The notes under the pieces are model-generated. The model was given only the letters and a program-made list of their open reading frames with translations, did no database searches and was not told where the DNA came from. From Planctomycetota bacterium (GTDB taxonomy: Bacteria > Planctomycetota > Brocadiia > Brocadiales > Brocadiaceae): DNA of 64,000 nucleotides. Below are positions 393 through 13,503 of this stretch, piece after piece (the first letter of the stretch is position 1; every line of letters starts with the position of its first letter). The position numbers were made by a program, and so were the translations under genes. The stretch spans positions 1-64,000 of the forward strand of contig VGXV01000006.1 of NCBI GenBank assembly GCA_016873165.1, written 5' to 3'.

Positions 393-3362
393 ATGATGAT
401 AACGTCAGAGATTTTCGAAGCCTATCTTAAATGCCCTTCCAAGTGCTGGTTCCGCTTTCATGGCGAAGAAGCCGCCGGGAGCACATATTCTCAATGGATG
501 GGGAAGCAGAACCATTGGTACCAGGAAGAAGCCCTCAAACGGATTGTAAAAGATAGCGGTGGGGACTATTACACCTTTTCTCCGACTCAACCTTTGAACA
601 TAAAAACGGCTAAGTGGAAGTTATCTGTAGATTTTGTTGTACGTAAGGAGAACTTGGAAGCCCATGTTCCTGCTGTCGAGCGATTGTCTTCCCATGGCAA
701 GCCCGTTAAGCTCGTTCCCATTCGATTTGAGTTCGCTAATAAGCTTACAAAAGTGGAAAAGCTGACACTCGCGTTTGATGCGCTCGTGTTGTCCGGAGCG
801 TTTAGGCATGAAATAGTCTGCGGCAAAATAGTCCACGGCGATGACTTTTCCAGGACAAAGGTTAAGCTGCATTCTCTGACACGAGAGGTGCGAAAGCTTA
901 ATGGCAAAATTGCCACGTTGCTTTCAAACAGCGCGCCACCTGATATCATTCTAAACCGACATTGCCAGGAGTGCGATTATCACGCCAAGTGCCGACAAAA
1001 GGCTATTGAAAAAGACGACCTCAGCCTGTTGGCCGGAATGCACGAAAAGGAGCAGTCAAAATATAACAAGAAAGGTATATTCACCGTTACACAACTTTCG
1101 TACACATTCAGGCCTCGTCGCCGACCGAAAAGGCAACGGGATAAACGAGAGAAGTATCACCATTCGCTGAAGGCGCTCGCGATTCGTGAAAAGAAAATAC
1201 ACATTGTCGGCAGGCCGGAACTGAAGATCGAAGGCACGCCAATTTATCTCGATGTCGAGGGACTACCCGACCAAGACTCATACTATCTGATTGGAATGCG
1301 CATCAAAACCGCAACGGGGACCATTCAGCATAGCCTGTGGGCTGATGAAAGAGATGCCGAAGGGAAAATATGGCTCGATTTTCTCGGAGTTCTCGCTCAA
1401 ATAGAGAACCCCATCTTGATTCACTATGGAAGCTTCGAGTCGACATTTATAAAACGAATGTGCGAACGGTATGGCGAACCCTTCTCGGATTCAGCAATGG
1501 TATCCACGATCAAATCGACAGTCAACCTCTTATCTGTTGTTTACTCTCAGATATATTTCCCCACCTTTTCCAATGGGTTAAAGGAAATAGCCGGTTATTT
1601 GGGATTCATATGGTCGGACGCTGTAGCATCCGGACTGCAAACAATCGCATGGCGTCATGAGTGGGAAGTTACGAAATCGCCCGATATAAAAGCAGCGCTC
1701 CTGACATATAATGTGGAGGACTGTGAGGCGCTCGAAATTGTAACCAGCAAGATAATTGAACTGCATCAATCTTTCTCTGAAGGTGAAACTGCGTCTTCAG
1801 ACACCGTGGTACGTACAGATAAAATGAAACGTGATCATCCCTATGGCTTCAAACGCAATACCTTCTCCCTTCCGGAACTGGATGCCATAAACAAGGCGGC
1901 ATATTGGGATTACCAGCGCGAGCGCGTTTACCTGAAGACAAAGCCCCGCGCTCAGGTTTTTTTGAGTCGCCCGCCATCACGGAGCAGGACACCCTTACCT
2001 CCGAACAAGACAATCACATATCCTCGCCCCCGCTCTTGCCCAAGGTGTGAATCTGTAAAGTTTTTTATTCACGGAAAGGCCAGTAGGCGCGTTCTTGATC
2101 TCAGATTTATGAGACACGGACTGAAAAGATGGATAGTAGTTCACCAGTTTTATCGCTACAAATGCCAGAGTTGTGGAGCCACTTTTTATACGAAGGAGAG
2201 ACTTTGCACTCGAAGCAAGTTTGGCGGTGGGATCGGGGCCTATTCTCTTTACCTGAATATCGGGCTCCGGTTACCACAGGAAAGTGTTGATCACAGTCTG
2301 AACAAATTGTTCGGTTTCGATTTAGCTATTGGAACAGCAGGACGCTTCAAGGAGAAAGCAGCCATCTTCTATAAGGACAGTTACAACGATATGATCAAAC
2401 GCTTGTGCAGCGGCCAATTACTCCATGCGGATGAGACAAAGATCAGCGTGGGCGGCAAAGAGAGTTTTGTGTGGGTCTTTGCAAATATGGAAGATGTTGC
2501 CTATATCTACAGTGAAACCCGACAAGGCGACATTTTACAGAACTTGCTTAAGAACTTCACCGGCGTACTTGTCTCGGACTTCTATGCGGCCTACGATGCA
2601 ATTCAATGCCCTCAGCAGAAATGTTTGATTCACCTGATCCGCGATTTGAATGATGCTGTTTTGAAATCTCCATATGATGACGAATTGAAAACTCTCGTTA
2701 AGAGTTTTGCCGGTTTGGTAAAACCCATAATTGAAACTGTGGATCGTTACGGACTGAAAAGTCGCTTTTTGCGAAAGCATCGTGTCTCAGTAGATCGGTT
2801 CTATCGGCGGCTCTCAAGAGAGGATTTACACAGCGAAGCGGCGATAGGTTTCAAGAAGCGTTTTGAAAAGAACAAAGACAAGCTATTTACCTTTCTTACG
2901 CACGACGGAATACCCTGGAACAATAATAATGCTGAACATGCAATCAAAGCATTTGCAATGCTTCGCAACATCATCTCAGGCGTTACTTCGGAGAAGGGCA
3001 TCCAAGACTATTTGGTGATGCTTAGCATATGTGAAACGTGCAAATATAGCGGTGTGGACTTCTTGGACTTTTTACGATCAGGAATGAAAGATATTCATGT
3101 TTTTGCTGAAAGTAAACGCAAGCGAAGGAGAGACAAAGTCTCACTTCCCATGCGCAATTATGGAAGAACCGGCATCTCGCCATCAAAAACTATGCGGCAT
3201 CAATCTTCCGAGGAGATAGAAGGTTTTTATCGGAAACTGTTACTGTGTCAAGAATCGCACCAGTCTCAAGTGGTCGGTGAACTCAATATTGATAGTCTGT
3301 TTCCTATCATCGCTGGTTATCAGGTGTATAGCGCATCCGTATCGATAAGGATACACCTCTAA
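393..3362 (+). CDS. RecB/Cas4-like nuclease + RNase H-like exonuclease + IS66-type transposase fusion
   Basis: One 989-residue frame joins three modules. Residues 1-210 resemble the TM0106-type RecB/Cas4-like nucleases, with cysteines C14, C18, C191, C194 and C200 placed as for an iron-sulfur cluster and candidate metal-site acids D80 and E113. Residues 280-460 look like a YprB/RNase_H_2 DEDD exonuclease: YLDVEG (D287, E289), HYGSFES (about 344) and YNVEDCEAL (D443). Residues 545-600 form a zinc ribbon (C549/C552, C591/C594), and 610-900 an IS66-family DDE transposase with HADET (D680), SDFYAAYD (D729) and WNNNNAEHA (E848). The ATG has AGGAA eight bases upstream. The IS66 accessory genes tnpA and tnpB are absent. 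Base composition looks richer in GC than the neighbours. The domain calls are motif reading; the joint function (self-mobilisation with end processing, or a captured host nuclease) is inference. Confidence 0.82.
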   Translation: MMITSEIFEAYLKCPSKCWFRFHGEEAAGSTYSQWMGKQNHWYQEEALKRIVKDSGGDYYTFSPTQPLNIKTAKWKLSVDFVVRKENLEAHVPAVERLSSHGKPVKLVPIRFEFANKLTKVEKLTLAFDALVLSGAFRHEIVCGKIVHGDDFSRTKVKLHSLTREVRKLNGKIATLLSNSAPPDIILNRHCQECDYHAKCRQKAIEKDDLSLLAGMHEKEQSKYNKKGIFTVTQLSYTFRPRRRPKRQRDKREKYHHSLKALAIREKKIHIVGRPELKIEGTPIYLDVEGLPDQDSYYLIGMRIKTATGTIQHSLWADERDAEGKIWLDFLGVLAQIENPILIHYGSFESTFIKRMCERYGEPFSDSAMVSTIKSTVNLLSVVYSQIYFPTFSNGLKEIAGYLGFIWSDAVASGLQTIAWRHEWEVTKSPDIKAALLTYNVEDCEALEIVTSKIIELHQSFSEGETASSDTVVRTDKMKRDHPYGFKRNTFSLPELDAINKAAYWDYQRERVYLKTKPRAQVFLSRPPSRSRTPLPPNKTITYPRPRSCPRCESVKFFIHGKASRRVLDLRFMRHGLKRWIVVHQFYRYKCQSCGATFYTKERLCTRSKFGGGIGAYSLYLNIGLRLPQESVDHSLNKLFGFDLAIGTAGRFKEKAAIFYKDSYNDMIKRLCSGQLLHADETKISVGGKESFVWVFANMEDVAYIYSETRQGDILQNLLKNFTGVLVSDFYAAYDAIQCPQQKCLIHLIRDLNDAVLKSPYDDELKTLVKSFAGLVKPIIETVDRYGLKSRFLRKHRVSVDRFYRRLSREDLHSEAAIGFKKRFEKNKDKLFTFLTHDGIPWNNNNAEHAIKAFAMLRNIISGVTSEKGIQDYLVMLSICETCKYSGVDFLDFLRSGMKDIHVFAESKRKRRRDKVSLPMRNYGRTGISPSKTMRHQSSEEIEGFYRKLLLCQESHQSQVVGELNIDSLFPIIAGYQVYSASVSIRIHL

Positions 3363-3614: not shown

Positions 3615-4052
3615 CTAAAGTTCATCCGCAATCTTGAAGTCTCCATCTGGAGGTTCTTTACCTTGTTCTTCTATATATTTTATTATTACTTCATCAGTAA
3701 CATTACCAGAACTTGCGACAAAGTACCCACGTGCCCAAATATGCCTACCCCAATATGCTCGACTCAAACTCTTATATTCCATCAACAATTTTCTGGATGT
3801 TTTACCCTTGAGAGATTGTACCAACTCGCTTACCGATATGTGCGGAGGAACAGACACAAATATATGCACATGATTTGCAGACACATGACCTTTGAGTATT
3901 TCTATATCTTTTGCCCTCCAAATCTGACGAACCAAATCCCTTACCCGTTCTGCTATTTCACCACGAAGAACTGGCTTGCGGTATTTGGTTATCCACACTA
4001 TGTGATATTTTATGTCATAGACGGTATGGCTGCTTTTTCTGTAATGCTCCAT
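3615..4052 (-). CDS. tnpA: IS200/IS605-type Y1 transposase
   Basis: This 145-residue protein is a full-length HUH/Y1 transposase, which cuts and rejoins single-stranded DNA through a tyrosine-DNA link. Visible are the family start (H-x-V-Y-D-I-K-Y-H-I-V-W, then TKYRKPVL), the HUH pair H61-V-H63, the conserved WGRHIWARGYF segment, and the candidate nucleophile Y126 in IIKYIEEQ. Its length matches the family (about 130-155). It ends exactly at a subterminal hairpin. No frameshift is seen, so it may be active. The plus-strand open frames through this region are its antisense shadow. Confidence 0.93.
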   Translation of the reverse strand: MEHYRKSSHTVYDIKYHIVWITKYRKPVLRGEIAERVRDLVRQIWRAKDIEILKGHVSANHVHIFVSVPPHISVSELVQSLKGKTSRKLLMEYKSLSRAYWGRHIWARGYFVASSGNVTDEVIIKYIEEQGKEPPDGDFKIADEL

Positions 4053-4087: not shown

Positions 4088-4173
4088 GGGTTTTTCTCCC
4101 ATTCCCCGAGGGTGACAATTAAAGAAAACCCGTCTCTTTTTAGGATGTTCTTGCTGTTGAAATTTGAGTTAAC

Positions 4174-4200
4174 AAATAGGGACAGCGACCATTTATTTCC
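4174..4200. repeat. Dispersed repeat copy beginning AAATAGGGACAGCG
   Basis: The 14 bases at 4174-4187 recur exactly at 63951-63964, and both copies continue into a similar TTTATTT stretch. It sits where similarity to the integrase begins, so it may mark the break in that gene. Confidence 0.5.
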
Positions 4201-4592
4201 GCAACGTCAGATAGCATTCGAGATTCTTTTAGAAAAGTCAAAACTAAGAACTGTCAGGAATGATCTTGTATTTTTGAGTCATGCAGGAACGAAGATAGAC
4301 CGACATAATTTGAGAAGGTCGTTTAATATCGCTTTAAAGAGGGCAGGAATAGAAAATTTTCATTTCCATGATCTAAGGCATACCTTTGCGACCCGATTAG
4401 TTCAAAGGGGCATACACCTCTATAAAATATCAAAATTACTCGGTCATCATTCTATAGAAATGACACAGAGATATGCGCATCATTGCCCTGATAGTCTTAA
4501 AGAAGGGGTACAAATTTTAGAGTCAGGTCACAATTTGGTCACAGTTGACAAAAAAGAGGAATGGGGAAAAAGTCGTAAATCTTTGCCATTAC

Positions 4593-4670
<78 letters not shown>

Positions 4671-4750: not shown

Positions 4751-4779
4751 TTGACAACAACATTATTTTCTAATATAAT
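4751..4779 (+). promoter_or_regulatory. Perfect-consensus sigma70 promoter upstream of ftsH
   Basis: TTGACA (4751-4756), exactly 17 bp, TATAAT (4774-4779). Start of transcription would fall near 4786, three bases before the inverted-repeat element at 4789-4938. The only downstream plus-strand gene is ftsH at 5018. Confidence 0.7.
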
Positions 4780-4788
4780 TTTAGTATC

Positions 4789-4938
4789 GTCCGGTTAGGA
4801 ATTTGCATGTACCGGCTTTTGTCATACCAGAATGCTTTTATCGGGTCCAGAGGCTCGTTTATCTTGGATTCCCGTTCAAAACATGCGGGATGACAGCTTT
4901 AGAACAAGGAAGTAAAACATGCAAATTCCTAACCGGAC
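4789..4938. repeat. 150-bp MITE-like element with 22-bp perfect terminal inverted repeats
   Basis: The terminal arms 4789-4810 and 4917-4938 are perfect reverse complements, beginning GTCCGGTTAGGAATTTGC. Inside is a second imperfect inverted pair (GTCATACC near 4821 and GGGATGACA near 4888). There is no coding capacity and no clear target duplication. It lies between a consensus promoter and ftsH, so it would be transcribed into the ftsH leader and fold into a long hairpin. Confidence 0.8.
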
Positions 4939-5017
4939 AATGGTGATATAATTTGAAATAATTTCCCACTTTTAAATTATTTACATTTTTTTACTTTTCC
5001 ATCATCTTATTAAGTAC

Positions 5018-6925
5018 ATGATCAAAAATAAACATCCTGTTAAAAAGAACAAAAAGAGGTCTTTTTCCTTTGGGTATATCCTCCTGTTTTTTGCCATTGT
5101 TTATCTGGCACAGATGTTCCTTTCCCCAAAAGCAGAAGAAATGTCGTATAGCCAATTTAGGCTCTATCTTAAAAATGGCTATATCTCCGAATGCACTGTG
5201 GGACAAAACATTATACGGGGCTACTACAAAAAACTTTCCGCTGAGAGTGGTGATGAAGAGAGAATTGCTTTTTTCACCGTGCCTATCCAGGATCAGGCGC
5301 TTATAAGCGAACTTGAGGAACAAAAAGTACGCTTCAAGGGTGCGGCGGAGAATAATTTTCTGAAAAACACGCTTATGTGGTGGGTTATTCCTTTCGGTGT
5401 TATGACCTTAGTTTGGTTTCTGTTATTAAAAAAATTCAGTGGTATGGGTTCTCCTTTCATGTCCTTTGGAAAGGCAAAAGTTAAACTTTACTCTGATAAC
5501 GGCACACAAAAAATAACTTTTGCAGACGTCGCGGGATGTGATGAGGCAAAGGAGGAATTGAAAGAAATTAAAGATTTCCTTTCCTATCCCGAAAGATTTC
5601 AGAAATTAGGGGGGAAAATTCCGAAAGGTGTGCTTTTGGTAGGATCGCCAGGAACAGGAAAAACACTTCTTGCAAAAGCAGTTGCGGGAGAAGCCGGGGT
5701 GCACTTTTTTTCCGTCAGTGGTTCTGACTTTGTCGAGATGTTCGTTGGTATGGGAGCTGCCCGTGTGCGGGATATGTTTGAGCAGGCAAAGGAAAAAGCG
5801 CCATGTATTGTTTTTATTGATGAAATTGACAGTGTGGGACGCCAAAGAGGCACCGGGCTTGGCGGTGGCCATGATGAGCGTGAACAAACGCTAAATCAGC
5901 TTTTAGCAGAAATGGACGGGTTTAACTCGCAAAAAGGCGTAATTATTATTGCGGCAACGAATCGACCGGATGTATTAGACAATGCCTTATTGCGTCCAGG
6001 ACGTTTTGACCGCCAAATCACGATTGACAGGCCGGATCTTGCCGGCAGGGAAGCTGTTTTGGCAGTCCATGCAAAAAGTATAAAAATAGATCCTGATGTC
6101 AGCCTTAAAACCATAGCGAAACGTACACCCGGTTTTACCGGCGCCGATCTGGCAAACGTTATAAACGAATCCGCGCTTTTAGCAGCAAGGCATAACAAAA
6201 ATTCTGTGGGCATGGAAGAATTAGAGGCTGCTATTGACCGAGTCCTTGCCGGACCAGAGCGAAAAAGCAGGATAATGAGTGAAACAGAGAAAAAGACTGT
6301 CGCCATACACGAATCCGGCCATACCCTTGTTGCGGCTATTTTGCCCAAAACCGATCCGGTTCATAAAGTCTCCATTATTCCCAGAGGAACAGCGGCTTTA
6401 GGATATACAATGCAATTGCCTATTGAAGATAAATACTTAACAACAGAATCCGAACTGTTAGAAAATATCTGTGTTTTGCTTGGAGGCCGGGCTGCAGAGG
6501 AAATTATTTTAAATGAAATTTCAACCGGCGCTCAAAATGATATTGAAAAGGTATCAAAACTGGCAAGAAATTATGTATGCCGGTTTGGTATGAGCAAGAA
6601 AATAGGCCCTCAAACCTTTGGCAGGCAATCTGGCAACATTTTCCTCGGACATGACCTTGTCCAGGAAAAGGAATATAGTGAAAAAACCGCTGTTATTATC
6701 GATGAAGAAGTAACAAAAATTATTAATGACTGTTACGAAAAGACAAAAAAACTCATTCGGGACAATCGGAGCAAACTTGACATATTGGTGAAGAAATTGG
6801 AGGAAGACGAAGTACTTGATGGAGATCAAGTACTTGATTTGCTCAATTTAAAAAAGAAAGATACTTCATTTAATACGGAGAGAAAAGAAGATATTCTGCC
6901 AAAAGAATTACCGGAGCGAAATTAG
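5018..6925 (+). CDS. ftsH: ATP-dependent zinc metalloprotease FtsH
   Basis: FtsH is a membrane-anchored AAA+ protease that unfolds and degrades misassembled membrane proteins and some regulators. The 635-residue protein has two N-terminal membrane helices (about 18-36 and 118-137) around a short exported domain, an AAA module with Walker A GSPGTGKT (209-216), Walker B VFIDEID (265-271) and the second region of homology around 310-330, and an M41 protease domain with HESGH (431-435) and third ligand candidate D508. Length is normal. Its leader contains the inverted-repeat element. It ends 11 bp from the convergent yebC gene. Confidence 0.97.
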
Positions 6926-6936
6926 GTAAGTACCAA

Positions 6937-7695
6937 TCACTCTTTATTCTTCATTTCTGCAAAAATTTCTTGTGTAAGATTCAGATTTGAGTATACATTA
7001 TTTACATCATCATGATCTTCCAGAGCCTCAATAAGAGTAATTACTTTACGGCATGCCTCACCCTCTAATTCAATAGTGTTCTTTGGAAGCCAGCTTATTT
7101 CCGCACTTTCAATGGTTATGTTTTGTTTTTCAATGGTTTTTTTAATAACATCCAGATTGGTTTGGGAGCATAATACCTGGTAATATTCCCCTACCGCTTG
7201 CAAATCTTCTGCACCCGCATCCAATACCATCATCATAAATTCATCTTCAGGACAAACATTGCTGTTCACTAATATAATTCCTTTTTTCTCAAACATCCAG
7301 GAAACACAACCCGTTTCTCCCATATTGCCGCCAAATTTTTCGAACATTTTCCTTAATTCAGGTACTGTTCTGTTTTTATTATCCGTAACCGCATCTACCA
7401 TCAATGCTATTCCATGCGGTCCATATCCTTCAAACAAACACTCTTGCAATTCAACATTATCTCCGCCCGTACCGGTACCTTTCTGTATTGCGCGTTCTAT
7501 ATTATCCTTTGGCATATTTGCAATACGAGCTTTACTTATTGCAAGTTCCAGTTTCGGATTCATATTAGGATCACCACCGCCTTTTTTTGCAGCCATGGTG
7601 ATCATTCTGGATATTTTAGAAAACACTTTGCCTTTTTTAGCATCGGCGATGCCTTTTTTATGCTTTATACCAGCCCAATGTGAATGACCTGCCAA
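6937..7695 (-). CDS. yebC: YebC/PmpR family (TACO1-like) protein
   Basis: Starts MAGHSHWAGIKHKKGIADAKK, the signature of the family, and keeps the full length (252 residues). Family members are described as DNA-binding regulators (PmpR) and, more recently, as ribosome-associated factors that help translation of proline-rich stretches; the mitochondrial relative TACO1 is a translational activator. It is the last gene of a same-strand series running from nusA, 44 bp after the TPR lipoprotein gene, which fits a translation-related role. Which of the functions applies cannot be read from the sequence. Confidence 0.93.
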   Translation of the reverse strand: MAGHSHWAGIKHKKGIADAKKGKVFSKISRMITMAAKKGGGDPNMNPKLELAISKARIANMPKDNIERAIQKGTGTGGDNVELQECLFEGYGPHGIALMVDAVTDNKNRTVPELRKMFEKFGGNMGETGCVSWMFEKKGIILVNSNVCPEDEFMMMVLDAGAEDLQAVGEYYQVLCSQTNLDVIKKTIEKQNITIESAEISWLPKNTIELEGEACRKVITLIEALEDHDDVNNVYSNLNLTQEIFAEMKNKE

Positions 7696-7739
7696 GTTTA
7701 TTCTCTCCCATTAAATGCGTATAATTTTATTATATAATT

Positions 7740-9305
7740 CTATATCTTTTTCTCTCTATGACCCGCAATTATCTTTGTACTGTTTTTCTCCATGGAAATC
7801 AGTCTTTTTAATTTCTCTATTTTTTTTGTTACATTTCCTAATTGTTTCTCACAGGAAGGTATCTTTTCATACAATGCTTTTGCTTTTTCCCACACATCCA
7901 GCGCATCACACCAACTTCCCAGACTGTAGGCTACATCTCCTATATGTTCAAAAATATCCGGTTCTTCCAATATCTTAACTGCCTCTTCCAATTTTTGAAG
8001 CGCCATTACTAAATAATCGTCTCTTTCTTCTATTTGCGCTTTCTTATAGTATGCCCATCCCAAACTATCAAGATATGCACCATTTGTTGGTTGAGAATTG
8101 AGAGCTCTCTTAATCAAGACAATTGCTTCGTCAATATTCCTATTATTTTCCGCAAAAAAATACCCTAAAAAATTATTCGCCTCATGAAAATCAGGATTGA
8201 TTTTTAATGCCAAGCGCAGTTCTTCTTCCACTTTACCATAGTTTTGAGATTCATAATAAAGATTTGCCAGCAAAAAGTGGGCTTCCATTTCTGCTTCTTC
8301 TTCTAAAGGCAACAACCTCATATTTTCAATCGTATTTATTGCCTCGTTAATCTTATGTTGACTTCTGTATATCTGACTGAGCAAAAAATATTCTCTAGGA
8401 TTTTTACTACCTGCATCTACGTTATTTTCAAGAATTTTTTTGATTTTTTCTACTTCCTCATCTCTTTCCGATTCTCTTTCTAATTTCTCATATATTTCAG
8501 AAAGCGTAAGACGCATTGCCCAATTATCTGGTTCTTTAAGAAGAAACCCTTTTGCTTCTTCAACCGCATTATCATAATCTTTTAAAATATCATAGCATAG
8601 TGTTATATAAAAACTCGTAAAATTTAATTTAGGATCGTATTTTTTTGCGCTCAAAAAATGTTCTAACGCTCTATCTACAATATTTTTCTCAAAATATTTT
8701 ATGCCAATCTCATAATGAAATTTTGCCGGTTGAGCTATAAGGTGCATCTTAAACATAGTTTGATAACACTCCGCACCTTTCTCTATCACGCCCTCGTCCA
8801 TATAAATATTTGCAAGTCTGTAGAGAGCATCCGCCAGAAATACATAATCCAGTTGAGTAATATTACATTTTCTGGCATATTCATACTCAAAAATAGCCTC
8901 TTTCTTTTTGCCAACTGATTCATAAAGAGTGGCTAGTGTATAATGAATATTGAATTCCTGCGGAATTTGTTTTGCGAGTTTTTCGAGGGAACCGATGGCT
9001 TTTTCATTCTCTCCTAGTTGGAAATAGCATGTGGCCAAATGCTTTAAAATTCTCTCAGAAGAGGGATCTATCTCACTTGCCTTCTCAAAATTATCAGCAG
9101 CTATTTCCCAACTTCTTTCCAGCAAAAAAAAGTATCCTGTACTAAAATAGGAAAACGCTTCTTTCTGTTTTCTTAAGAGCAGGTATGCATCTTTTCCGGA
9201 TTCCGGAGGATTTTGTTTTGTGCTAAAACTGCCGCATCCCAAAAGACCAAAAGAAGAGAGGGCTATTGATACTGCAATTATAATAAAGGATTTGGCAAAA
9301 ACCAT
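7740..9305 (-). CDS. TPR-repeat lipoprotein
   Basis: 521 residues with an N-terminal hydrophobic signal and lipobox LLGC (lipidated C24), followed by many tetratricopeptide repeats (for example residues 60-170, 190-260 and 360-470). It should be an envelope-anchored helical scaffold for protein-protein contacts. TPR lipoproteins act in outer-membrane assembly, secretion or cell-envelope complexes, but the repeats do not say which. The gene sits 43 bp after hisG on the same strand. No enzyme motif is seen. Confidence 0.85.
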   Translation of the reverse strand: MVFAKSFIIIAVSIALSSFGLLGCGSFSTKQNPPESGKDAYLLLRKQKEAFSYFSTGYFFLLERSWEIAADNFEKASEIDPSSERILKHLATCYFQLGENEKAIGSLEKLAKQIPQEFNIHYTLATLYESVGKKKEAIFEYEYARKCNITQLDYVFLADALYRLANIYMDEGVIEKGAECYQTMFKMHLIAQPAKFHYEIGIKYFEKNIVDRALEHFLSAKKYDPKLNFTSFYITLCYDILKDYDNAVEEAKGFLLKEPDNWAMRLTLSEIYEKLERESERDEEVEKIKKILENNVDAGSKNPREYFLLSQIYRSQHKINEAINTIENMRLLPLEEEAEMEAHFLLANLYYESQNYGKVEEELRLALKINPDFHEANNFLGYFFAENNRNIDEAIVLIKRALNSQPTNGAYLDSLGWAYYKKAQIEERDDYLVMALQKLEEAVKILEEPDIFEHIGDVAYSLGSWCDALDVWEKAKALYEKIPSCEKQLGNVTKKIEKLKRLISMEKNSTKIIAGHREKKI

Positions 9306-9348: not shown

Positions 9349-10221
9349 TCAGAGAATTACTTTATTGAGTGGATATTCAATAATTCCTTCTGCCCCTGCC
9401 CTAATTAACGCCGGTATAATGTTTCGTGCAATACTCTCGTCTATCATTGTTTCAACTGCATAGCCGGCGCCTTCACTCAAGGTAGAAATAGTAGGTTTTC
9501 TTAATGCAGGCAATTGTTTTAGCACTTTTTCCAGAGACTCACCGGGAACATTCATCTTCAATCCGACTTTTTCACGGGCTATAATTGCCCCTTCAAAAAG
9601 CATAGCGAGGTTTTCCATTTTTGTACGCTTCCAATCATCCTTCCAAGATTGGTGATTCGCGATAAGCTGTGTTACCGATTCCATAATTGTATCCACCACA
9701 CGGAGGTTGTTCGCTTTGAGACTGCTACCTGTTTCGGTAAGTTCAACAATTGCATCAACCAAGGCAGGAGCCTTTGCTTCTGTCGCACCATGGGAGAATT
9801 CAATATCTGCAACTACTCCTCTTTCCGCGAGATACTGCCGCGTCACATTCACCAACTCTGTTGCAATTCTCTTGTTATTTAAATCCTGGACAGACTTTAT
9901 TTCCGAATTTTCCGGAACTGCCAATACCCATCTGACTTTTGTAAGTTGTTGTTTCGCATATACGAGATTCACCACAATTTTCACATCAGACCCGGCTTCC
10001 TTTACCCAGTCCGCACCTGTTAAACCCGCATCAATAATACCCTTTTCCACATATCTTGACATATCCTGTGGCCGAATTAATCTTATAGATATTTCATCAT
10101 CATCAATTGTAGGATAATAGGACCGCGAACTTACGCGAACCGTATAACCTGCTTTCTTCATCATGTCAATAGTAGATTCCTGCAAACTACCTTTCGGTAA
10201 ACCAAAATTTAATTTTTTCAT
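9349..10221 (-). CDS. hisG: ATP phosphoribosyltransferase, long form (HisG)
   Basis: Catalyses the first step of histidine synthesis: ATP + PRPP to phosphoribosyl-ATP. 290 residues is the long, HisZ-independent form; the GLTGADWVKEAG motif is near residues 65-80, the PRPP-binding region lies around 150-175, and a C-terminal ACT-like domain (about 215-290) should bind histidine for feedback inhibition. The ATG overlaps the rbfA stop by four bases (ATGA), so the two are translationally coupled. No other his genes are in the window. Placement behind rbfA is unusual. Confidence 0.95.
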   Translation of the reverse strand: MKKLNFGLPKGSLQESTIDMMKKAGYTVRVSSRSYYPTIDDDEISIRLIRPQDMSRYVEKGIIDAGLTGADWVKEAGSDVKIVVNLVYAKQQLTKVRWVLAVPENSEIKSVQDLNNKRIATELVNVTRQYLAERGVVADIEFSHGATEAKAPALVDAIVELTETGSSLKANNLRVVDTIMESVTQLIANHQSWKDDWKRTKMENLAMLFEGAIIAREKVGLKMNVPGESLEKVLKQLPALRKPTISTLSEGAGYAVETMIDESIARNIIPALIRAGAEGIIEYPLNKVIL

Positions 10222-10595
10222 TCTTCTGATCCATTCTTTTCAGTTACAGTACTTCCCTGAACTGCTTCATCAATAATTTTTAAGATACGATTGCACTTTT
10301 CAGATGACTCATCCAAACAAAATTTCAATTGGGGGGTATATTTTACACGCAAACAAGCTCCCAATTCTGCCTGAATAAATCCCTTTGCATGCCCCAATCC
10401 CCACAGAGTGTGTTTCTGTGCCGCTTCATCACCGAGCACAGAAACATAGACTTTTACATTCTTTAAATCCGGCGATATCTCTACCTTGGTAACCGTTATA
10501 AAACTCAGCCGCGGGTCCTTTACTTTATAAAGGATGATTTTACTTACTTCTTGTTTAATAAATTCAGACAATCTTTCAACTCTTCTCGTAGACAT
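10218..10595 (-). CDS. rbfA: Ribosome-binding factor A
   Basis: 125 residues starting MSTRRVERLSEFIKQEVSKI, with the KH-type fold and the motif VKVYVSVLG typical of RbfA. It binds the pre-30S subunit near the 5' end of 16S rRNA and helps late maturation. It follows nusA, infB and the DUF503 gene, the conserved order in many bacteria, and overlaps hisG by four bases. Confidence 0.94.
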   Translation of the reverse strand: MSTRRVERLSEFIKQEVSKIILYKVKDPRLSFITVTKVEISPDLKNVKVYVSVLGDEAAQKHTLWGLGHAKGFIQAELGACLRVKYTPQLKFCLDESSEKCNRILKIIDEAVQGSTVTEKNGSEE

Positions 10596-10647
10596 AAACT
10601 GCTATCAATTCATTTTTTCCAAAGACAATTCCCGAATAAACACTTCA

Positions 10648-10971
10648 TTACGATTCGGAATATATAAATTCCAGATTGTATCCAACAAGCTCAAAGGAGG
10701 TTGCACATCTAAACATATTGACTAAATTGGAAAGAGTGCTGTTTACATACTGCTTGTCGTTTCCCACCATGGCAATTCCCAGACTAGAATACTGACAATG
10801 GTCCAATACTCCTGTTTCCGATATGGAGACATTAAAATTATTTTTTACACGATCCTTTAAACTTTTGATGACACGCCGTTTTTCTTTTAATGTTCGTGCA
10901 TTTCGGATAACCAATCGCACAGATAGCAAACCTACCATCGTGTCATCAGACTTGCAAAATTCCAGATTCAT
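10648..10971 (-). CDS. ylxP: DUF503/YlxP-like protein
   Basis: 107 residues matching the small YlxP/DUF503 family: VGLLSVRLVIRNARTLKEKR, then a short mixed alpha/beta fold. Family proteins usually lie between infB and rbfA, as here, and Bacillus relatives have been tied to ribosome biogenesis; the biochemical role is not established. Most relatives begin at the second methionine, so the true start may be 10938 (residue 12) and not 10971; neither has a clear Shine-Dalgarno sequence. Confidence 0.85.
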   Translation of the reverse strand: MNLEFCKSDDTMVGLLSVRLVIRNARTLKEKRRVIKSLKDRVKNNFNVSISETGVLDHCQYSSLGIAMVGNDKQYVNSTLSNLVNMFRCATSFELVGYNLEFIYSES

Positions 10972-11271
10972 AGTTCTGCATGCGGAAAACAGATGCTATC
11001 GAAAACAACAACTATTTTAACATATCAACAAGATATTCTATTTCTGAAATCAACACCGCTCCTGCCTATCTTGGGTATTTATGGTTTTCTTTAAATTCAA
11101 CAACAAGGATTTGATTTTGTGCTTATTTACATCTTTGCAAAAACACAAAAATAAAGGACACATACTGGAATTAACTGTGTATATTCAAGGTATGAGTATC
11201 TTTAATATTACAATCTGTGTTGCCTTCACAAATTCACTAAACTTATACACTACCACGCAAAATATTCTTTA
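10972..11271. other. 300-bp gap between infB and ylxP
   Basis: AT-rich. I see no gene, RNA or terminator I can support. A 64-codon plus-strand open frame (11081-11275) is antisense to the operon and shows no family resemblance. Confidence 0.5.
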
Positions 11272-13503
11272 CTAAACAGAAAGTGTTCTGGCGATCTTTT
11301 GTATTTCATATGCTTCAACGATATCACCAGCTTTAATATCGTTAAAATCGGCAATTTTTAAACCGCACTCAAATCCTGCCTTTACCTCTTTTACATCATC
11401 CTTCACAACTTTCAATGATTCCAACCTTCCGTCATATATGATAATACTGTCCCGAATCAGACGGACAAAGGAATTTCTCGTGATTTTACCGGATTTCACG
11501 TAGCATCCTGCAACATTACCGTATTTCGAGATATTATATACCTGCCTGATTTCCACATGACCCAATACAACTTCCTTTTTTTCAGGCTCCAGCATCCCCT
11601 CCATTGCAGCCTTTATTTCGTTTGTTGCATCATAAATAATCTTATAAAGCCTGATTTCCACACCTTTTTCTTCTGCCAGCAAACGTGCCTTGTCTTCCGC
11701 TGTTACATAAAAACCAATAATTAACGCATCCGATGCATCTGCAAGAAGCACGTCAGACTCTGTAATGCCGCCAACACCGCTGTGTAAAATTTTCACTTTG
11801 ATTTCAGTCGTAGAAAGCGCATCTAACGCCTTCTTCAGCACTTCAACAGAGCCTTTATAATCAGCTTTTAAGATGATTTTAATTTCTTTAACATTTCCCT
11901 CTGCAATCATGGAATAAAGATTATCGAGGGTAACATGTTGATGTTTTGCAAGGGAAGTTTCCCTGTCTTTACTTCTTCTCTCCAAAGCAATTTCTCTTGC
12001 TTTTTGTATATCACTCACCACATAAAACTTATCTCCCGCCTCAGGGATATCGGAGAAATCAGAAATTGAAACCGGTGTGGCAGGTCCCGCTTCTTTCATT
12101 TCTTTCCCTTTATCATCTATTAACAGCCTAGCTCTGCCAAATGTTTTTCCACAAAGAACAATATCTCCCTGCCGCAAAGTTCCATCTTGAATAATTACAT
12201 TTGCAACAACACCTCTCCCTTCGCTAAGATGAGCCTCAAGAACCACTCCCCTGGCATAATTCATGGGAATAGCTTTTAGTTCAAGTATTTCTGATTCTAG
12301 TAAAAGCACCTCAAATAAAGAATCAATCCCTGTTCCTGTTACTGCCGAAGTTTCCACGAACGGGGTTTTCCCACCCCATTCTTCAGGTATTAAATCTAAA
12401 TTAGCAAGCTGCTGTTTAACACGTAAAGAATTAGCGCCTACCTTATCAATCTTATTAATTGCAACAATTATTGGAACGTTAGCTGCCTTAGCGTGATTAA
12501 TTGCCTCTTCTGTTTGAGGCATCACTCCATCGTCTGCTGCAACCACAAGGACTACCACATCAGTAACATTCGCACCTCTTGCCCTCATTGCTGTGAAAGC
12601 TTCATGTCCGGGGGTATCAAGAAACACAACGTGTTTGCCATTCGTTTCCACTTTGTGCGCTCCTATATGTTGTGTAATGCCCCCAACCTCTCCTTCCGCA
12701 ACCTTTGTTTTACGAATACGATCAAGTAACGATGTTTTCCCGTGGTCAACATGTCCCAAAAAGGTTACTATTGGCGCACGAGGCACTTTATCTTCCTCTC
12801 GTGTAGATATTTGTTCCGCAGTGAAATCGTATTCTTCTCTAGCCTCTTTTTTGTTAATTTCTATTTCTACATTATATTCTATACCTAATAACTGAACTAT
12901 TTCTTCACTTAAGATTTGATTTATTGTCGCGCGAACATTATGCTCAAGCAATAATTTGGTTATAATTTCATTTGCGCGAATTCCTAATTTAGAAGACAAA
13001 TCCTTTACCGTAATTGGCGGCTCCATAATAATGTGCGTTTCCCGCTCTTTCACTATCGGCTTTTTAACTTCTATATATTTTTCCGATAATTCTCTGTTTT
13101 TTTGCTGTGAAGAACTATCCGTTTGCTTCTTCTTCCAAAATGCTTTTGCTGGAGCTACTTTTGCCGGTTGTTTTTGCCGTTGTGCCGCACTCTTATGAAA
13201 TCTAACAATTTTACTTGGTTGCACACTTTTTTCTGTCCTATCTTCCTGCAATATGTCCTTATCTTCCAGTTTTTCTTCTTTTGCACTAGTCTTGATAGCC
13301 TCTTTCACTTTAGGTTCCTTTGTTGTAACAGAATCGTCCGGAGTTCGCTTGAACAATTTCTTTAACATTTCAACTTGTTCGGGATCAAGGGTATTTGCAT
13401 GGTGGTTAATATGTGTCAACCCTTTCTCTTGGCATGTGCTAATTAGATTATTACTCTTGATGCCCAATTCTTTTGCAAGCGAACTAATTCTTATTTTTCC
13501 CAT
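11272..13503 (-). CDS. infB: Translation initiation factor IF-2
   Basis: 743 residues. The N-terminal IF2 module ([15 protein letters not shown]) is followed by a charged linker (about 55-150), a second IF2_N module (160-215), and the GTPase with G1 GHVDHGKT (250-257) and the DTPGHEAF switch segment, then domains II-IV. It delivers initiator fMet-tRNA to the 30S subunit and promotes subunit joining. AGGA lies about eight bases before the ATG. It follows nusA by 49 bp, as in most bacteria. Confidence 0.97.

Follow-up and report, generated by a model that had tools for sequence, protein, structure and literature searches.

The nearest sequence family of the protein described here is the IS66 transposase TnpC (NF033517, PF03050), which has a zinc ribbon and a DDE domain with a D-D-E triad and a WNNNxAE motif, and whose elements carry GTAA-type terminal inverted repeats and an 8-bp target duplication. 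RecB-like nucleases of the TM0106/COG2251 type (TIGR03491), in turn, consist of a Cas4-like domain followed by an RNase_H_2 domain with DEDD residues, and AAA domains have been reported for COG2251 (PMC3985635). The TM0106 module was likewise joined to helicase domains in other loci compared here (AAA_11/AAA_12 in L136; AAA_11/AAA_30 in L133), bearing out the statement in the earlier note on this DNA that such nucleases are usually helicase-linked. In the literature searched, no paper was found in which TM0106 is paired with a transposase.

In the 64,000-nucleotide stretch of Planctomycetota DNA analyzed here (contig VGXV01000006.1; hereafter the window), an IS66 transposase takes the place of the helicase. 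A single open reading frame of 989 codons with no internal stops encodes the entire TM0106 module, in its usual domain order, followed by the transposase (Table 1). The protein exceeded the curated NCBIfam cut-offs for both families, with TIGR03491 matching residues 5–450 (176 bits; cut-off, 97.45) and NF033517 matching residues 529–896 (204 bits; cut-off, 180). Pfam placed Cas4/DUF83 at residues 10–200, RNase_H_2 at 284–453, and DDE_Tnp_IS66 at 608–871; the zinc ribbon (residues 545–594) was a weak match below the cut-off. These matches confirm the nuclease-exonuclease-transposase fusion in one frame that the earlier note had proposed, with the domains where it had put them. Structure prediction, suggested there as a check, gave an AlphaFold2 model (pLDDT 83) that resembles both Cas4/Dna2 and a transposase. 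By comparison with this model, the predicted N-terminal fold is that of Cas4/Dna2 Fe-S nucleases (8d3l, 5ean, and 7mi4), and the best structural match, to the DDE half, is the ISCth4 transposase (6xg8), which, unlike the fusion, belongs to another IS family (IS256) and has no N-terminal nuclease module. Residues ~916–989 are not conserved among relatives, and the model shows them as disordered.

Table 1. Positions of the fusion gene, its domains, and the adjoining mobile and tRNA features in the window
Feature	Position	Strand	Remarks
Fusion gene: TM0106-like N-terminal half (Cas4/RecB-type Fe-S plus RNase H-like) and IS66 DDE transposase	393..3362	+	
Cas4/Dna2-like PD-(D/E)xK fold, residues 1–210	393..1022	+	C14, C191, C194, C200 kept; (D/E)xK lost
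RNase_H_2 DEDD domain, residues 281–460	1233..1772	+	D287, E289, E349, Y439/D443 conserved
Zinc ribbon, residues 541–600	2013..2192	+	C549, C552, C591, C594
IS66 DDE catalytic region, residues 601–900	2193..3092	+	D680, D729, E848
C-terminal tail, residues 916–989	3138..3359	+	Non-conserved; low model confidence
IS200-type Y1 transposase	3615..4052	-	Between fusion gene and integrase remnant
Tyrosine integrase, C-terminal remnant	4140..4630 (start approximate)	+	End ..GVAGFEPTTS reads into tRNA
tRNA-Pro (ggg)	4593..4669	-	Probable attachment site of island; related L028 unit has tRNA-Pro(ggg) 3'-end repeats

The window copy lies at the start of a contig in a draft assembly, which might speak for two genes joined by an assembly or annotation artefact. 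This explanation, whose probability is negligible, is refuted by about 70 unbroken, colinear relatives with the same domain order from many independent genomes, where they occupy single frames. The search for such homologues had been put forward in the earlier note, and its outcome shows that the fusion is not a junction of two genes. Carriers include isolates (Methylomonas, Bradyrhizobium, and Pedobacter), a complete Polaromonas chromosome, and metagenome bins, and they span Planctomycetota, Verrucomicrobiota, Acidobacteriota, Bacteroidota, Cyanobacteria, Pseudomonadota, Nitrospirota, and others. Colinear homologues in genomes of the same order were 49% and 33% identical. A scan of species genomes yielded 80 loci; in most of them the match extends from residue 1 to ~910, and in most the frame is open throughout. 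All 45 members tested matched both TIGR03491 (E ≤ 1e-10) and NF033517. One locus (L045) holds two different fusion genes in tandem (6001–8745 and 9485–11677). Viral contigs and phages gave no match to the fusion. It occurred in 2 of 72,556 plasmid records, a rarity that is not used as evidence because a stand-alone IS66 control likewise gave none. When a tree was built from the DDE region together with stand-alone IS66 controls, the fusions formed one group (SH-aLRT 98); the method was a quick one, and control rows in the wrong frame and a single divergent fusion row (F_L085) had been removed. This grouping supports, without proving, a single origin of the fusions.

The catalytic centers of the protein have had different fates. 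The complete IS66 triad noted earlier (D680, D729, and E848) was borne out and is invariant in all 71 members. In the RNase H-like domain, D287, E289, and D443 are present in 71/71, with E at position 349 in 69 members and D in the other two, leaving the DEDD 3'-5' exonuclease-like center intact. Of the processing activities that the earlier note had ascribed to the protein, the 5'-3' one did not hold up. At the places where canonical TM0106 relatives have their D, D-x-K, and Q-L motifs, the fusions read P-I-R/L-F; both D-x-K and Q-L are replaced in every fusion (column 111 is R, L, or I; column 113 is mostly hydrophobic or Ser), unlike in TM0106/COG2251 or Cas4/Dna2 nucleases. Seven chance 'ExK' strings close to the lost motif were judged not to be aligned with it. 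The Fe-S cysteines shared with Cas4/Dna2 are all that remains: the three C-terminal ones are invariant, and C14 is found in 68 of 71 members, with gaps in the other three. Since the (D/E)xK center is lost while these cysteines are kept, 5'-3' nuclease activity is unlikely, and the Cas4/RecB-like nuclease domain is probably dead, serving instead as a structural or DNA-binding Fe-S domain. Most close pairs showed purifying selection in every domain, with dN/dS mostly 0.04–0.33 and exceptions in short or nearly identical segments.

Near-identical DNA for residues ~100–350, followed by very different C-terminal halves, was seen in a set of mosaic genes (L040, L048, L023, L025, L030, L038, L050, and L051). 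For example, L040 and L048 share 82–98% of residues over 101–350 and only 10–56% beyond ~351. In trees, residues 100–352 of L048 group with Verrucomicrobial proteins and residues 540–900 with another clade (support 100). Similar conflicts between N- and C-terminal trees were found for L050/L051 and, in the reverse direction, for L069/L071. As judged from these comparisons, the two halves of the fusion recombine; most of the loci concerned are metagenome bins, for which chimeric assembly is a caveat, although the samples behind the bins differ and the conflicts recur.

The IS66 model score above the cut-off, the intact D-D-E triad, and the patchy spread across phyla would fit an autonomous insertion sequence of the IS66 family, provided that its ends have diverged or that metagenome assembly has collapsed its copies. 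However, a joint scan for terminal inverted repeats with an 8-bp target duplication was negative at all 78 fusion loci, whereas the same scan found inverted repeats (GTAA-type and similar) with a perfect 8-bp duplication in 14 of 33 stand-alone IS66 controls (p = 4e-9). Extending the search to 6 kb gave only chance matches at fusion loci, and sequences up- and downstream of close relatives showed no obvious conserved end motif. The transposon with definable ends that the earlier note had expected from comparing flanks was therefore not recovered; relatives at different sites have no ends in common except short gene-proximal margins. In the phylum of the window, the fusion was present in 4 of 392 genomes as one copy each, unlike IS66, which reached 14 copies in one genome, and no multicopy expansion of the fusion was seen. 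Copies within one host genome differ in their identity to the query and so look like different subtypes, a comparison made via the query only. An autonomous IS66 element thus appears improbable, and the best reading of the sequences is that the fusion does not reside in an ordinary jumping gene.

The surroundings of the gene point to genomic islands. In the window, the fusion lies 1.2 kb from a tRNA-Pro(ggg), with the integrase remnant and the IS200 gene between them; an integrase end running into a tRNA is typical of an island edge. No left-hand tRNA-Pro repeat was found in the window, where the left flank is lost because the contig begins at base 1. The segment at 4560–4641, comprising the integrase end and the tRNA-Pro 3' end, recurs elsewhere in this genome (contig C6, 69191–69272; contig C39, 28540–28589), which suggests related islands. 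Beyond the tRNA, a long inverted repeat with 46-nt arms (78%) lies at 4765–4962, upstream of an ftsH-like gene, and is perhaps a MITE. Across loci, direct repeats of 24–143 bp flanked the fusion gene in 14 of 65 cases versus 2 of 60 random loci (p = 0.003), the 14 including some short, possibly unrelated repeats (L034, L038, and L096). The clearest are tRNA 3' ends (L028, tRNA-Pro(ggg), 56 bp; L030, tRNA-Gly; L026, tRNA-Asn), and a 52-bp identical tRNA 3' end flanks L049 just beyond the counted range. In L050 and L076, the repeat is the comM 3' end, of which a diverged copy follows the unit. L062 is flanked by clear attC sites (consensus cores GCCTAAC..GTTAGGC), and attC-like hairpins lie to the left of Bacteroidota copies; general attC enrichment was absent (12 per 326 kb vs 7 per 400 kb).

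Near neighbors of the fusion include AbiE (Bacteroidota and a Verrucomicrobial tRNA-Gly unit), HigBA (Nitrospirota), Fic, PIN/ParE, and a methylase paired with a companion gene. Addiction and defense families were richer in the near than in the far gene set, with two lineages dominating (AbiE in Bacteroidota and HigBA in Nitrospirota). PADLOC matched only residues 2–207 of the window protein, as Cas4-type, and returned no described system beyond this; no CRISPR context was seen for the fusion. Several arrangements recur. In L063, L064, L068, L069, and L071, the fusion forms a unit with the DUF6088/AbiEi-like and AbiEii genes that follow it; in four of these loci, attC-like hairpins that end in GTTA lie ahead of the unit. 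A HigB/HigA-like pair accompanies the fusion next to comM in L050, L051, L076, and L094. A three-gene unit with sharp ends (a putative endonuclease that matches no Pfam family, a DNA methylase, and the fusion) occurs in L058 and L061 and is 93% identical between the two Planctomycete bins. REP-like repeats and Y1 transposase genes (RAYT-like, by eye) lie beside the fusion gene in L038, L044, L055, and L085.

These bounded units raise a second alternative, which we regard as possible but doubtful: the fusion could be the recombinase of compact integrative elements (2.9–6 kb) that carry addiction modules and integrate next to the 3' ends of genes, with its N-terminal half processing the element ends. 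A simple motif scan found no tyrosine-integrase motif inside 15 direct-repeat-bounded units, leaving the fusion as the sole recombinase-like protein seen in most; several units hold the fusion gene alone (L041, L082, and L093), and sharply bounded units travel together (L058/L061 and L063/L068). However, because the fusion served to select the loci, finding it in all of them carries no independent weight, and the simplicity of the integrase motif weakens the scan. Repeated gene 3' ends are characteristic of tyrosine recombinases rather than DDE enzymes, and an integrase remnant or gene lies near the window copy and L078. The absence of a conserved end motif also counts against such an element, as does L031, which is 90% identical in DNA to L028 yet has no tRNA within 2.1 kb upstream, whereas L028 sits at tRNA-Pro. 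An integrase of a new compact element class, in which an IS66-type DDE domain would be combined with built-in 3'-end trimming and a dead Cas4-like DNA-end binder, inserting beside gene 3' ends (tRNA and comM) with interchangeable addiction modules, is a conjecture that we hold to be unlikely.

The reading we prefer, with a rough probability of 0.45, is that the fusion is an IS66-derived DNA-processing enzyme, an accessory gene of genomic islands or cassettes and not an ordinary IS transposase. Its island-borne setting, often beside toxin-antitoxin genes, and its distinction from an ordinary jumping gene make a repurposed enzyme probable. In favor of this are (i) the conserved DEDD, DDE, and Fe-S residues under purifying selection, (ii) the lack of IS66 ends, and (iii) the direct repeats, the addiction and defense neighbors, and the integrase remnant and tRNA-Pro of the window. 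Against it, the fully conserved DDE triad would also fit an active transposase, the neighbor enrichment is dominated by two lineages, some of the 14 repeat-flanked loci have short, possibly unrelated repeats, and PADLOC found no system in the window protein beyond the Cas4-type matches. In such an enzyme, binding of DNA ends or junctions may fall to the Fe-S Cas4-like domain and zinc ribbon, trimming of 3' strands to the DEDD domain, and cleavage or joining of DNA to the DDE domain. The selected role would most likely be to counter mobile DNA that invades or competes, or to maintain the carrier island; the 'defence-related recombination enzyme' that the earlier note gave as one possibility fits the neighborhood data.

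If a transposase has become stably joined to a nuclease module and has spread to many phyla while lacking transposon ends, it would clearly exemplify the conversion of such an enzyme into a different DNA-processing machine. In public records, these proteins appear as either 'TM0106 nuclease' or 'IS66 transposase'; such split labels hide both the fusion architecture and its association with islands and toxin-antitoxin genes. The fusion offers a system in which defense, or a novel way for islands to move, could be tested.
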